Assembly: GCA_946887425.1 (NCBI GenBank)
Contig: CAMPKW010000029.1
Location: 1 to 11,678, forward strand
Origin: an uncultured Candidatus Saccharibacteria bacterium
Lineage (GTDB): Bacteria > Patescibacteria > Saccharimonadia > Saccharimonadales > UBA6022
DNA length: 11,678 bases
Direction of reading: 5' to 3'
Part shown: in pieces, positions 2,391 through 6,822 of the stretch
Numbering within the stretch: the first letter of the stretch is position 1
Layout: each line of letters opens with the position of its first letter
Program-made: the position numbers and the translations under genes
Notes under the pieces: model-generated
Databases searched by the model: none
The model's input: only the letters and a program-made list of their open reading frames with translations
What the model was told of the DNA's origin: nothing

Positions 2391-3455
2391 TTATTTTTTC
2401 AAAATACTGTTATCTGGATCGTTTTCGTGACGGTCAGCGCTCGGACTTTGGCCCTCAACCGGCTTTGACGATGAGCCACCGCCAGCGTTCACCTCGTAGC
2501 TCGTATTCGTGGCTTCAAAGAAGTTCACGAGCTGCAACGTATCGTTGGCACCAGCCATCCACTTGGCAGGGTTTGAGACCTTGTAGTGCGGGTCAAACCC
2601 AAGCTCTTCAAGACGGCGATCAGCCAAGTACTTCACGTATTGGTTGATGTAGTCGCTATTGAGGCCAAGGATGCCGTTTGGCAACAAGTCCTTATTGTAG
2701 GCTTCTTCCATCTCCACGGCATCGAGAATCATTTGCTTGATTTCGTTGGCGAACTCTTCAGTCTGAAGGTCTTCGTTTTCTTCAAGTACGGTAAGAATAA
2801 GGTTGATACCGAACTTGAGGTGGAGTGATTCGTCGCGCACTACCCAGTCCATGAGAGAGCCGAAATTGCGGAGCAAGTTGCGCTGGCGGAATGAAAGTGC
2901 CACCATAAACCCGCTGTAGAACCAGATGCCTTCAAGGATAATGTTGTAGGCTACGAGGTTGCGGACAAAGTCTTTCTTGCCTTCAGTAGTAGTAATATCG
3001 AGCGTATCTTCCGTCATACGCTTAATAAACTTGGTCTCGAAAGCTTCTTTGGCAGCCATCGAAGGAGTTTCCACGTGTGCAGCATAGGCTTCTTCGCGGT
3101 TGATCGGGAATGTCTCGAGCACATACTCAAATGACATACAGTGATTCGCCTCTTCCCACATTTGCTTGGCAAGATAGAGGTGACATTCAGCAGCATTTAC
3201 ATACGGATACACACCAAAGGCCAGCGCTTTATTGACGAGCAGCTCATTCGGGTTGAAGTAACTCATAAGGAACGTGAGCGCGTGGCGCTCTTCATCGCTC
3301 ATTTTCTTCCAGTCGGCTAGGTCTTGTCCGAGCTGAATCTCATTTGGAAACCATGTGTTTGCCACTGCTTGATCGTAAAGATCCATAGCCCACTTATAGT
3401 GAACTGGCTTTAAAAGCAGTCCGTCCTGAATACCTGTACCTAAAATTCCTGCCAT
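2391..3455 (-). CDS. nrdB: Ribonucleoside-diphosphate reductase class I beta subunit, Tyr-less (class Ic-like)
   Basis: This 354-residue ferritin-fold subunit generates the oxidant that starts the NrdA radical reaction, reducing ribonucleotides to deoxyribonucleotides. Metal ligands can be assigned as E71, E102, H105, E175, E209 and H212; the spacings 31, 73 and 34 match those I recall for Chlamydia trachomatis NrdB (E89, E120, E193, E227). The radical tyrosine site, H105 plus four, is Phe109 (HCMSF), and the first ligand is Glu rather than Asp, both marks of class Ic, which uses a Mn/Fe centre instead of a tyrosyl radical. W35 and the tail tyrosine Y320 (NFFEATNTSY, 311-320) are in place for radical transfer. 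The 34 residues after Y320 are a Gly/Ser-rich polar tail that is probably disordered. A strong GAGGAGG (3460-3466) lies 4 nt before the ATG. Metal identity cannot be read from sequence. Confidence 0.93.
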   Translation of the reverse strand: MAGILGTGIQDGLLLKPVHYKWAMDLYDQAVANTWFPNEIQLGQDLADWKKMSDEERHALTFLMSYFNPNELLVNKALAFGVYPYVNAAECHLYLAKQMWEEANHCMSFEYVLETFPINREEAYAAHVETPSMAAKEAFETKFIKRMTEDTLDITTTEGKKDFVRNLVAYNIILEGIWFYSGFMVALSFRQRNLLRNFGSLMDWVVRDESLHLKFGINLILTVLEENEDLQTEEFANEIKQMILDAVEMEEAYNKDLLPNGILGLNSDYINQYVKYLADRRLEELGFDPHYKVSNPAKWMAGANDTLQLVNFFEATNTSYEVNAGGGSSSKPVEGQSPSADRHENDPDNSILKK

Positions 3456-3477: not shown

Positions 3478-3732
3478 CTATGCCGCTATCGTTTCTAGTT
3501 CAAGCAGGCCGTTTCGAACACAATATTGCGTCAATTTATTTAGTTGCTCTTCGTGACGATTATACTCGGCGAGCGCTTCAGTGCGCTCAGCACCCTCTAC
3601 AGATCCATATAGAAGAAGTCGCTCCGCATCATTCATTCCATCAAGTGACCGCTCTCGCAGCTCAAGCGCTTGATCATGCAGGTGTTCGTCTATCGCGAGT
3701 GGATATACCTGACCGTAACGTTCGTGCCCCAT
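3478..3732 (-). CDS. 84-aa protein of unknown function inside the nrd operon
   Basis: I do not recognise this protein. It starts MGHERYGQVY at an ATG one nucleotide after the TAA of the upstream 60-aa ORF (TAATATG), which suggests translational coupling, and it ends 22 nt before nrdB. It is charged and probably mostly helical: residues 17-32 (DEHLHDQALELRERSL), 33-43 and 48-70 would form amphipathic helices, and there is one cysteine (C71). No signal peptide or membrane segment is seen. The open frame continues upstream to an ATG at 3879, but that would run across the 60-aa ORF in another frame and translate poorly (Leu/Arg-rich, unlike the rest), so the ATG at 3732 is preferred. Its position between nrdA and nrdB suggests a role with ribonucleotide reductase, which is inference only. 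Confidence 0.65.
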   Translation of the reverse strand: MGHERYGQVYPLAIDEHLHDQALELRERSLDGMNDAERLLLYGSVEGAERTEALAEYNRHEEQLNKLTQYCVRNGLLELETIAA

Positions 3733-3733
3733 A

Positions 3734-3916
3734 TTACTGGCAACCCATGCACATAGTGAGGTCTGCTGGGTCAAGTGGCGCCACAACCTGACCACCAAAG
3801 CCATTATCATTAGCGTCCTGTTGTGCCTGAGCTTGAGCATTTGCCATTGCCTGGTCGATAGCTGCAAGTTTTTCTTCAAGTGTCATATCTTCTGAGATGA
3901 TTTGTGATGCGTTCAT
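3734..3916 (-). CDS. 60-aa protein with a NrdA-type C-terminal CxxC tail, candidate separate redox tail of ribonucleotide reductase
   Basis: The protein has three parts: a helical segment rich in Ala and Gln (about 10-34), a flexible Gly-containing linker (36-45), and the ending PLDPADLTMCMGCQ. Class I NrdA proteins commonly end in a flexible tail with a cysteine pair, often as CxxCQ at the very C-terminus, that carries electrons from thioredoxin or glutaredoxin into the active site. The NrdA encoded just upstream has no such cysteines. This ORF is in the same frame as nrdA, 87 nt beyond its stop, with its own AGGGG ribosome binding site (3924-3928) 7 nt before the ATG. I infer that it supplies the reducing CxxC in trans, its helix docking on NrdA. 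Alternatives are a NrdH-like redox peptide of other origin or a regulator. Confidence 0.7.
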   Translation of the reverse strand: MNASQIISEDMTLEEKLAAIDQAMANAQAQAQQDANDNGFGGQVVAPLDPADLTMCMGCQ

Positions 3917-4003
3917 AGTGCTTCCCCTTTTTGCTTTCCTTATTATCGCTACTTTATTCGTAAATGTCTGTGAAATTTCTTGCTTACGTTCGATCCATCA
4001 TAC

Positions 4004-6403
4004 TTATGCCTCAACCTTCGCTTTTGCGAATCCAAAGCCAGTCTTGCGCGGTCCGCCGCTTGCTTCTGCCTTGTTGACCTTGACGGTACTTTGCTCGGCG
4101 GTGTGACGCGGTTTTACGTGCAGGTAGTAGGTTGTCTTGAGGCCACGCTTCCATGCGGCGGTATAGATATCAATGTAATCATCGATGTTACGAGTTTCGA
4201 GGTACATGTTACGACTAATTGCTTGGTCGACCCACTTTTGCGCACGAGCGGCAACTTCGATAAATGAGTACGGGCTGAGCTGGAAGCTCGTTTTGTATAC
4301 ATCTTTGATGTGCTGCGGGATTGCATCAATTTGTTGTACATCACCCTGTGCACGAAGTACATCTTCTTTGACGTCGTCCCAAATACCGAGTTTCTTTAAG
4401 TCGTTCACGAGGTTCACGTTTACTTCTAGGAACTTACCATTCAAAGTTGCACGAGAAAAGATTTGTGCAAACTGTGGGTCGATACCTGGAGTGGTGCCAG
4501 AAACATGGGCGTTATTGGCAGTTGGGGCAATCGCCATGAGCGTTGCGTTACGCATGCCTTTTTGTACCTTAGCGCGAAGTGTTTCCCAATCGAGGCGTGT
4601 TTTGCGGCTAATCTCTACCTTTACGTTACGGTCGGCGTCGAGTACGTCGAGCGTATCGATAGGAAGAATGCCCTTGCTCCAGCCACTTCCCTTGAATGTT
4701 GTGTAGCTGCCGCGTTCTTTGGCAAGGTCGGCACTGGCATCAATCGCGTGGTAGCTGATGAATTCGGTTAACTGATCGATCAGCTCATACGCTTCTTCTG
4801 ATTCATAGCTATGACCAAGCTTTTCAAGGACATCAGAGAATCCCATAATACCAAGACCAACCGCGCGGTTTTGGAGATTAGAGTGCATTGCCTGAGGAAT
4901 TGGTGTGTTCGTAAGGTCACAAAGATTGTCGAGCTGACGAATAGACACGCGAACAGCTTTTTCAAGACGATCCCAGTCCCATGTTCCGTCTTCACGAAGG
5001 TGAACCGACAAGTTGATGCTCGAAAGGTTACATACGGCAGTATTATCTTTGTCCTGCGGAAGTGTAATTTCAGTACAGAGGTTTGAGTGGTGAATCGTAC
5101 CGGTGTTGTTATTAAGCGCACGAACATTCATTGTATCTTTCCAGGTAAGCCACGGGTGACTCGTTGCCTGAAGAACCGTCAGGATCTGATGGAACTGCTC
5201 ACGAGCATTGATCTTGGCAAAGTCACGCAGCTTGCCCGCTTCGGCAAGCTGAGCGTATTCTTCGTAACGCTTCGCGAACGCGCTACCGTAAAGTTCGATC
5301 AAATCAGCAGTCTCGGCTGGGTCAAACAAGTACCAATCTTCATTATTTTGAACACGACGCATAAATTCGTCGCTCAACACAACAGCGGTGTTGGCAATAC
5401 GAGTACGAAGGTAGGGGTCGCCCGAGTTTTGCTTGAGGTCGAGGAATTGTGGAAAGTTAAGGTGCCAGTTCTCCATGAAGATAGCAGCTGCACCTTGTTT
5501 TTTGCCCTTGCGGCTCACTGCAAAGAGCGCTGTGTCGATCATCTTAATAAATGGAATCGGGCCAGTTGATTCGCTGTTGGTGGTATGAACTGGTGAACCT
5601 GCCGCACGAAGCTTAGTGATGCCGATACCAATACCACCCGTACCCTTGGCAATCCACATTGTATCGCGTACACCGCGAGAGATTGCCTCCATGTCATCTT
5701 CGATATCAAAAAGGAAACAGTTTGAAAGCTGCGGGAATGATCCACCAGCATTGATACGAGTTGAACCTGCCGGGTTGGCGTCGAGCTTACTGATATATTC
5801 GTAGAATTCAAGGGCTGTTGCGGTTGGATCTTTCTCAAGCAAGCTAAGACCCATTGCAATACGCATAGCCGTGAATTGAGGAACTTCCATAGATCCACCA
5901 CTGTTTTTACGAAGGCTATAGCGGTTGCGGCTCGTCACCACACCAAGGTAGCGCATCAAGCGATCGCGAGATGGCTCAAGGGCTTCAGTGAGCTTATCGA
6001 GGTCAAAGGTCGTGGCATTCATCCGCTCATCAAGTAGACCATCGGCGATACCCTGCTGCAAATATTCAGGGAATTTTTCGGCATGAAGCTTTTTTAGATC
6101 AGCGGCATCTTTGTAGCTGCCGAGTACTTTTTTGTAGATATTCTTAAGAAGCAAGCTTGCCGCAATTTTATCAAAATCAGGATCATCTTTTACGTTCTGC
6201 AAAGCCGCGTGAATCACCGACTCGTCGAGCTGCTCAGTGGTAATACCATCAAATAATGTCAATTGAACTTCTGTCGCAACTTGTACAACCTTACTAATTT
6301 GGTCAGGAAGTCCTTCGCTGGCTTCGACTAACGCAAGATTGATTTTGTTGGCGTCGAATGGTTCGCGTGTGCCGTCGCGTTTTACCACATTGATCGTACT
6401 CAT
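4004..6403 (-). CDS. nrdA: Ribonucleoside-diphosphate reductase class I alpha (catalytic) subunit, lacking the C-terminal Cys pair
   Basis: The 799-residue catalytic subunit reduces ribonucleotides using a thiyl radical. Residues 1-95 form an ATP-cone (VVKRDGTREPFDANKI near the start), so dATP/ATP control of overall activity is likely. C229 (LSNCFL) and C458 (AVCNLSS) are the active-site redox pair, C443 in NLCTE (441-445) is the thiyl-radical cysteine with N441 and E445 beside it, and Y759-Y760 (KTTYY) are the radical-transfer tyrosines. The only other cysteine is C495. The last 40 residues (ending GFGFAKAKVEA) have none, whereas class I enzymes normally end with a Cys pair that re-reduces C229/C458. 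A CxxC-ending small ORF follows. The ATG at 6403 has AGGGG 7 nt upstream. It is the first gene of a four-gene operon with the 60-aa ORF, the 84-aa ORF and nrdB. Confidence 0.95.
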   Translation of the reverse strand: MSTINVVKRDGTREPFDANKINLALVEASEGLPDQISKVVQVATEVQLTLFDGITTEQLDESVIHAALQNVKDDPDFDKIAASLLLKNIYKKVLGSYKDAADLKKLHAEKFPEYLQQGIADGLLDERMNATTFDLDKLTEALEPSRDRLMRYLGVVTSRNRYSLRKNSGGSMEVPQFTAMRIAMGLSLLEKDPTATALEFYEYISKLDANPAGSTRINAGGSFPQLSNCFLFDIEDDMEAISRGVRDTMWIAKGTGGIGIGITKLRAAGSPVHTTNSESTGPIPFIKMIDTALFAVSRKGKKQGAAAIFMENWHLNFPQFLDLKQNSGDPYLRTRIANTAVVLSDEFMRRVQNNEDWYLFDPAETADLIELYGSAFAKRYEEYAQLAEAGKLRDFAKINAREQFHQILTVLQATSHPWLTWKDTMNVRALNNNTGTIHHSNLCTEITLPQDKDNTAVCNLSSINLSVHLREDGTWDWDRLEKAVRVSIRQLDNLCDLTNTPIPQAMHSNLQNRAVGLGIMGFSDVLEKLGHSYESEEAYELIDQLTEFISYHAIDASADLAKERGSYTTFKGSGWSKGILPIDTLDVLDADRNVKVEISRKTRLDWETLRAKVQKGMRNATLMAIAPTANNAHVSGTTPGIDPQFAQIFSRATLNGKFLEVNVNLVNDLKKLGIWDDVKEDVLRAQGDVQQIDAIPQHIKDVYKTSFQLSPYSFIEVAARAQKWVDQAISRNMYLETRNIDDYIDIYTAAWKRGLKTTYYLHVKPRHTAEQSTVKVNKAEASGGPRKTGFGFAKAKVEA

Positions 6404-6728: not shown

Positions 6729-6732
6729 AATA

Positions 6733-6822
6733 TGGCGGAGAGAACAGGATTCGAACCTGCGGTACCATCGCTGGCACACACGCTTTCCAAGCGTGCGCCT
6801 TCAACCACTCGGCCACCTCTCC
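6733..6822 (-). tRNA. tRNA-Ser (anticodon GGA)
   Basis: A 90-nt tRNA with encoded CCA. The acceptor stem GGAGAGG pairs with TCTCTCC (last pair G.U) followed by G73 and CCA (6733-6735 on the plus strand read TGG). The D-arm begins TGGCCGAGTGG; the anticodon stem-loop GCACGCTTGGAAAGCGTG carries GGA (complement of 6786-6788). A long variable arm (TGTGCCAGCGATGGTACC region) marks it as a class II tRNA, and the T-arm is GCAGGTTCGAATCCTGT. It would read UCC and UCU serine codons. Confidence 0.97.

Follow-up and report, generated by a model that had tools for sequence, protein, structure and literature searches.

A small separate protein as the probable redox tail of class I ribonucleotide reductase in Saccharibacteria, with counterparts in Microbacteriaceae and phages

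We analysed an 11,678-nucleotide (nt) stretch of DNA from an uncultured Candidatus Saccharibacteria bacterium (contig CAMPKW010000029.1 of assembly GCA_946887425.1; hereafter the window), in which nrdA, the gene for the catalytic subunit of a class I ribonucleotide reductase (RNR), is followed by an open reading frame (ORF) for a protein of 60 amino acids (aa). Each RNR turnover oxidises two active-site cysteines, which are reduced by a dithiol at the C-terminus of the enzyme, able to act on the neighbouring subunit too; the dithiol is itself re-reduced by thioredoxin or glutaredoxin. Re-reduction is usually ascribed to the enzyme's own tail. In the window NrdA lacks this tail, and the 60-aa protein is probably the tail itself, detached and encoded as a separate gene; we put the probability of this reading at roughly 0.88. 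The initial annotation had likewise placed the redox tail on a separate protein, and that proposal gains strong support from the pairing of the two genes in 60/60 genomes, the same motif fused to NrdA in relatives, the gene positions and the viral copies. We also lean, with less assurance, towards a wider reading: the tail may have been detached in Saccharimonadia, divergent Saccharibacteria and Microbacteriaceae as a diffusible peptide of down to ~21 aa, and in many phages of these hosts the peptide may be the sole RNR part carried, a minimal auxiliary metabolic gene by which the host enzyme is driven or rewired during infection.

A tail-less NrdA and a conserved small protein

The elements on which the reading depends are all on the reverse strand:

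4004-6403, minus strand: nrdA, catalytic subunit of a class I RNR (799 aa, model NF005101), with ATP-cone, all-alpha and barrel domains
5717-5719, 5075-5077 and 5030-5032, minus strand: nrdA codons for Cys229, Cys443 and Cys458
3922-3929, minus strand: purine-rich AAGGGGAA, a possible ribosome-binding site for the tail gene, read by eye
3734-3916, minus strand: putative detached redox tail protein, 60 aa, with Cys56 (3749-3751), Cys59 (3740-3742) and a C-terminal Gln
2391-3455, minus strand: nrdB, radical-generating subunit, 354 aa, subclass Ic-like (PF00268)

Window NrdA possesses the barrel domain, ATP-cone, three active-site cysteines and Tyr-Tyr pair (759-760) of a class I enzyme, and nrdB supplies the expected partner. 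The class I cysteine pair at the C-terminus of the same chain is missing: the only cysteines are 229, 443, 458 and 495, with none beyond the last. The roles of the active-site cysteines were assigned by presumed correspondence with the Escherichia coli enzyme, C229-C458 being what we take to be the counterpart of C225-C462. The best-fitting NCBIfam model, NF005101 (822 positions), was matched over positions 2-793 with 1309 bits (cut-off 988); because the match stops at 793 of 822, about 29 C-terminal positions are absent from window NrdA. The NrdJ_Z model scored 358.7 bits, under its cut-off of 399.95, in contrast to the NrdA model, which was over cut-off. In the small ORF, Cys56 and Cys59 are the sole cysteines and the terminal residues are TMCMGCQ (PLDPADLTMCMGCQ); no Pfam or NCBIfam family matched the protein. 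The length of NrdA, its cysteines, the Tyr-Tyr pair and the lack of any cysteine past 495 were all given in the initial annotation, and each number that was checked proved correct.

The small protein is widely conserved. At E ≤ 1, 1476 proteins matched it (the best 120 of the 1476 being listed), and in 25 chosen rows the start is retained, as are a helix-like stretch MTLEEKLAAID..AMANAQ and the C-terminal APxDPADxTMCxGCQ. Among relatives, Shine-Dalgarno (SD)-like bases precede 52 of 70 distinct tail ORFs. The median pairwise ratio of non-synonymous to synonymous substitution rates (dN/dS) was 0.07 for 102 of 110 pairs, a value lowered both by the pre-selection of pairs at ≥80% protein identity and by near-duplicate loci among them. 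On these comparisons the small ORF is confirmed as a conserved gene, far beyond chance.

A rival explanation would be an assembly or annotation artefact, a false stop having removed the end of nrdA from the window record; nothing was found in its favour. A scan of named-species genomes for NrdA gave 48 loci, of which 30 Saccharibacteria-type ones reach the nrdA end. The small ORF adjoins nrdA in 26 of these 30 and lies 1.8 and 2.7 kb downstream in L023 and L042; at L047 masked bases fall inside the ORF, and at L026 the contig ends and the small ORF is found on another contig of the same genome. Independent genomes thus repeat the arrangement in 30/30 loci, and the low dN/dS of the tail ORF also disfavours an artefact. 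Assembly error was rejected because independent genomes show the same arrangement, and we regard its probability as negligible.

Pairing of the tail gene with NrdA

The class Saccharimonadia was sampled evenly, giving 294 genomes; 60 have the window type of NrdA (68-82% identical; three in pieces) and 14 a divergent NrdA (39-42% identity). A hidden Markov model (HMM) of the small protein matched 58 of the 294, namely 57 of the 60 and one other genome, G220. In the remaining three (G211, G248 and G279), an ORF search of the operon found proteins of 66, 67 and ~76 aa ending VDPMDELGCEGCQ, TDPADAFMCDGCQ and ADPADAFACEGCQ. A separate tail protein is therefore encoded in 60/60 genomes with the window NrdA type (57 by HMM, 3 by ORF search), and HMM matches alone give a Fisher p of 5e-56 (57/60 against 1/234 other genomes). 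The match in G220 (C6:100631-100693) is a truncated relic of the 60-aa protein, devoid of cysteines, in a genome without a matching NrdA; such a relic would be expected if tail and enzyme are lost together. HMM-found tails are 53-62 aa long (55 genomes, start found by rule), and 57/57 end in CxxC followed by Q or E.

Gene position and reading frame bear on the possibility that the tail is after all joined to NrdA in cis, through stop-codon read-through, frameshifting or protein joining. In the window, 87 nt separate the nrdA TAA from the tail ATG; the two share a frame by chance, and a further in-frame stop lies between them. This shared frame, also seen in 15 of the 41 loci with an HMM match between nrdA and nrdB, would suit a single chain. 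However, the other 26 are out of the nrdA frame (frames 0/1/2 = 15/17/9), the match starting anywhere from 4 to 182 nt past the nrdA stop, and as many as five in-frame stops intervene in one case. Nor does one chain agree with a tail gene located after nrdB in 16/60 genomes (the ORF search adds two cases between nrdA and nrdB, and in G006 the contig is broken), with unlinked tail genes in Microbacteriaceae and divergent Saccharibacteria, or with viral tail genes that stand alone or, in three contigs, lie upstream of nrdA. The gene positions therefore exclude read-through; read-through and frameshift were both rejected on the varied frames, gene positions, and unlinked and upstream copies, and joining in cis of any kind appears very improbable. 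The initial annotation had named a frameshift or false stop joining the ORF to nrdA, and non-conservation of the ORF, as outcomes that would count against it; both were looked for in the genome sequences and neither was found.

The end motif of the detached protein recurs fused to NrdA in relatives. Nine loci of the 48-locus scan carry it in this form. In the order of Galbitalea the scan gave 42 NrdA-positive genomes besides G007, from which the 20 closest NrdAs (67-75% identical) were fetched, the sample leaving out 22 at 39-43% identity. All 20 end DP(M/Q)xxLxC(E/D)(S/A)CQ in cis, mostly as ACPVDPM(E)xLQCESCQ behind a long linker. Fused-tail class I NrdAs of Actinomycetota and Patescibacteria (L031, L034-L041, L234-L253) thus share the end motif, e.g. 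CPVDPMERLQCESCQ, but hold it in cis, 56-221 residues beyond the conserved end of the barrel region (20 loci), whereas the window has it on a separate protein. When 14 chosen ends, detached and fused, were aligned, no row departed from one Pro or from the final C, C and Q, and the Asp was nearly invariant. The comparison with relatives proposed in the initial annotation has accordingly borne out both of its expectations, fused NrdAs carrying the same end and conserved pairs of nrdA and small ORF.

A second detached case was found in Microbacteriaceae. Seventy of 150 genomes were NrdA-positive, and NrdA 3' ends were fetched from 60 of the 70. None is fused (0/60), and a separate adjacent ORF of 21-57 aa, measured from the first possible start, comes next in 59/60. 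These ORFs often overlap the nrdA stop as ATGA or GTGA, and their ends resemble VPxDPMDxLQC(D/E)SCQ. Motif plus stop, written as a degenerate DNA pattern, was present in 71/150 genomes, comprising 70/70 NrdA-positive ones and 1/80 others (G410); the reversed-pattern control gave 0/150, and the association of motif and NrdA has a Fisher p of 1e-42. At least two motif matches are present in 59 of the 71 pattern-positive genomes. When 31 motif loci were inspected (30 pattern loci and L055), 17 did not adjoin nrdA by the motif test. Most of these 17 are genes for 26-28 aa, M....NDTVGGYAVPVDPMDLLQCDSCQ in form and preceded by a GGAGG-like site. G435, the sole one of the 60 without an adjacent ORF, has a motif match elsewhere, as does the Cryobacterium metagenome-assembled genome of L033.

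The 14 divergent-NrdA genomes of Saccharimonadia provide a third case. Three are fused (..CEACQ) and 11 are tail-less, and an ORF search around nrdA in these 11 yielded no tail ORF. The pattern C(E/D)xxCQ-stop led to ORFs of 32-37 aa at other sites, such as MPEKSKISGSIKEDDWDKPMTCPIDPSDLAECEACQ with an SD site. An HMM built from ten of them matched 20/294 genomes at E ≤ 0.01: ten matches are full-length (E < 1e-16) and ten are weak (E ≥ 3.9e-4), on ends of the 60-aa type. The full-length ten comprise 8/11 tail-less genomes, G037 (fused, with two tail genes) and G054; the two fused-only divergent genomes have no unlinked tail (0/2), and the association has p = 6e-12. At 8/10 of these unlinked loci (L160, L161, L163, L165-L168 and L255), a conserved gene lies near the 32-37-aa tail gene; from the motifs of its protein we take this neighbour to be of the LOG family.

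Viral copies

Searching viral contigs with an alignment of the 60-aa protein gave 13 that encode a version of 51-55 aa. The RNR barrel domain was found in 0/13 of their whole records, and in four contigs whose surroundings were examined (L275, L276, L278, L286) the genes close by include those for terminase, endolysin or primase. In L280 (4480-4830), the tail gene of this type stands just after an ORF for a dATP/dGTP diphosphohydrolase N-terminal domain.

One scan with an alignment of the Microbacteriaceae peptide confirmed the gene at 342 places in viral DNA; 80 were kept. Together with two more, these 82 loci all end in CxxC plus Q or E; NrdB is present in one, and tblastn of the fetched DNA found NrdA in none. 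The barrel domain was likewise found in 0/40 whole viral records, hand-chosen from the 80 loci kept of the 342, and in 0/53 when the 13 above are included. The missing nrdA is not proof in itself, because many records may be fragments. A DPMDxLQC codon pattern occurred at ≥120 viral places, which overlap with those of the peptide scan; 119 continue to CxxCQ-stop, and of these NrdA is present in 1 and NrdB in 4. A scrambled-codon control gave 7 matches in the whole viral collection, none with a CxxCQ-stop end. Over the last 17 codons of 69 distinct viral copies, 16390 codon differences are synonymous and 7550 non-synonymous. In L418, L432 and L490 a viral tail gene occurs with NrdB, NrdA not being found in the DNA fetched.

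Flanking proteins were compared for 54 chosen viral loci (100 of the 106 listed, six being left out); the commonest named matches were endolysins, peptidases, tape-measure proteins and terminases. Cultured Microbacteriaceae phages have the motif in unannotated stretches. In Pontimonas phage phiPsal1 it directly follows the holin (E 0.09 by one query, 1e-7 by another); the complete record has no RNR among its 56 features, and tblastn found no NrdA or NrdB. For Clavibacter phages CMP1 (50 of 58.7 kb checked) and CN1A, one query matched the motif at E ~0.1-0.2, the second at E 3-7. In Pseudanabaena phage Pan2 (L377:1493-1576) a hypothetical protein, annotated with 27 aa, ends DPADLVSCESCQ (E 0.02 and 2 by two queries), hinting that detached tails may extend beyond the two host groups.

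Searches with window NrdA found no relative among the viral contigs, and those of the annotated phage collection found no match to the 60-aa protein or to a 35-aa viral tail of the divergent type. Four viral contigs do carry a relative of Microbacteriaceae NrdA: L288 and L289 are tail-less, L290 is interrupted by an insert and L291 is fused. A separate tail gene lies upstream of nrdA in L288, L289 and L290. The interruption in L290 (the same contig as L420) is ~0.9 kb long and is possibly an intron or intein.

Mechanism, precedents and origin

If the 60-aa protein acts as the tail, the active-site disulfide C229-C458 would be reduced by its Cys56/Cys59 after each turnover; the protein would enter the active site as a flexible tail would, leave it oxidised and be re-reduced by a glutaredoxin- or thioredoxin-like protein. 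Among 17 hand-picked genomes, the glutaredoxin family is encoded in 16 and the thioredoxin family in 10, with one or other in 17/17. A free tail could be swapped for a fresh reduced copy, and its dose could be set apart from that of NrdA. In the 60-aa form, the helix could increase the tail concentration on NrdA; the shorter Microbacteriaceae and divergent forms would have to depend on being abundant or on the motif as such. For the viral copies, the simplest idea is that they would supply extra tail to the host RNR, a decoy or regulatory role also being possible.

Docking was sought by modelling the window stretch of nrdA, gap and tail as a single chain. A first model was poor, with a mean pLDDT (predicted local distance difference test) of 58.7; a second, from AlphaFold2, was good for NrdA at 83.1, with a predicted template-modelling score (pTM) of 0.83, NrdA being well predicted to about residue 767 and its end disordered, and yielded no interface score. 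In the 60-aa form, a helix holding the tail near NrdA is plausible. Helix docking would not be general, because the 21-37-aa forms offer little room for a helix.

Several observations weigh against a detached tail in this role. In the second model, tail helix residues 13-37 have a pLDDT of only ~62-70, and the CxxCQ end is below 50 and disordered. Three tail-less divergent genomes (G025, G028 and G050) have no tail gene by pattern or HMM search, and G054 and G410 carry a tail gene while NrdA was not found in them. A clear SD site precedes only 31/80 viral copies, and these copies lie among late phage genes, where extra deoxynucleoside triphosphate (dNTP) synthesis is unexpected. How a 21-30-aa peptide with no docking domain would compete with a tethered tail is unexplained.

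A different role is conceivable: the small protein might regulate RNR under redox control or act as its decoy, or it might carry electrons as NrdH does, with NrdA re-reduced by some other route. A separate, small, cysteine-bearing protein would be compatible with this, as would viral copies that occur without a catalytic subunit and among late genes, and the conserved N-terminal segment of the 60-aa form. Nevertheless, the conserved end is that of the relatives' own NrdA tail, and loss of the tail from NrdA coincides with presence of the tail gene in three settings; a glutaredoxin fold is excluded by the lack of any Pfam or NCBIfam family. We therefore consider a regulator or carrier improbable and retain the detached tail as the preferred reading.

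The nearest precedent is the split class II enzyme NrdJa/NrdJb of Pseudomonas aeruginosa, in which disulfide exchange was shown to be the main function of NrdJb and both subunits are needed in vivo (PMC4520616); NrdJb is described as folded (PMC9669993). The likeness is that the redox cysteines are on a separate polypeptide, which is known here from sequence alone. Unlike the B12-dependent class II NrdJa/NrdJb, the window system is class I, with the NrdA model over cut-off and nrdB present. The NrdJb tail subunit has a folded zinc-finger domain, whereas the detached class I tails are 21-76 aa with two cysteines and no known domain, and viral copies free of a catalytic subunit are a feature of the class I tail, unlike NrdJa/NrdJb. 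NrdJa/NrdJb is the true precedent for a redox partner in trans, the class I tail being NrdJb-like in its presumed working but outside that family.

The split class I nrdA of Aeromonas phage Aeh1 is reported to be fully functional (PMC2988022, PMC3653736). Phages of the Aeh1 type also make the class I catalytic subunit as two polypeptides, but there the gene is described as interrupted by a homing endonuclease or an intein, and in individual phages, whereas here the tail alone is detached, in whole bacterial groups. In Facklamia ignava, a glutaredoxin fused to NrdB is described (PMC6187632), likewise a change in how a class I RNR receives its reducing power; there a reductant is fused on, while here the enzyme's own tail is split off. 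In the open-licence literature searched, as far as its text was accessible, no description of a detached class I tail was found.

If the reading holds, RNR re-reduction has moved to a separate microprotein, below the size that many gene finders report, which should be essential where this RNR is the sole one. The tail would be exchangeable, dosable and stealable, and a virus could gain control of the host dNTP supply with very little DNA, through a gene of 21-60 aa and no catalytic subunit. How the tail finds the active site would be directly testable, because nature offers tethered, helix-bearing and bare-motif versions. Detached tails may also account for other NrdAs that appear tail-less.

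A 93-row tree of NrdA minus tail (FastTree, local support, unrooted) leaves out L022, L043 and L138; three rows marked unlinked (L143, L149 and L152) are ones in which the searches gave no tail gene. At least five changes between fused and detached states are required on it; because the tree is unrooted, change counts do not distinguish detachment from re-fusion. A branch with support 100 sets the Saccharimonadia rows apart, with Actinomycetota adjacent. Within Actinomycetota, fused forms (98) have the Microbacteriaceae-like rows (99) as their sister group, and 19/20 of the fused Galbitalea-order NrdAs are in the tree, grouping with Cellulomonas, Demequina and Nocardioides. The simplest reading would be tail detachment in at least three places, and the sister position of Saccharimonadia and Actinomycetota NrdA suggests gene transfer between the groups.

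The gene order in the window is nrdA, 60-aa tail ORF, family-less 84-aa ORF and nrdB, the third of these being:

3478-3732, minus strand: 84-aa ORF between the tail gene stop and nrdB, family-less

For this ORF no Pfam or NCBIfam family was matched, and tblastn gave no match in the loci searched. Window NrdB shows the sequence features of subclass Ic, with Phe in place of the class Ia radical Tyr (WEEANHCMSFEY), a Tyr two residues on, and Glu as first metal ligand, the metal-ligand residues being presumed identities. The closest solved chains by alignment are 1syy and 4d8f, which we take to be Chlamydia trachomatis R2c, the Mn/Fe enzyme of subclass Ic. Upstream of nrdA, at about 6732-6822 on the minus strand, lies what looks by eye like a serine transfer RNA gene.

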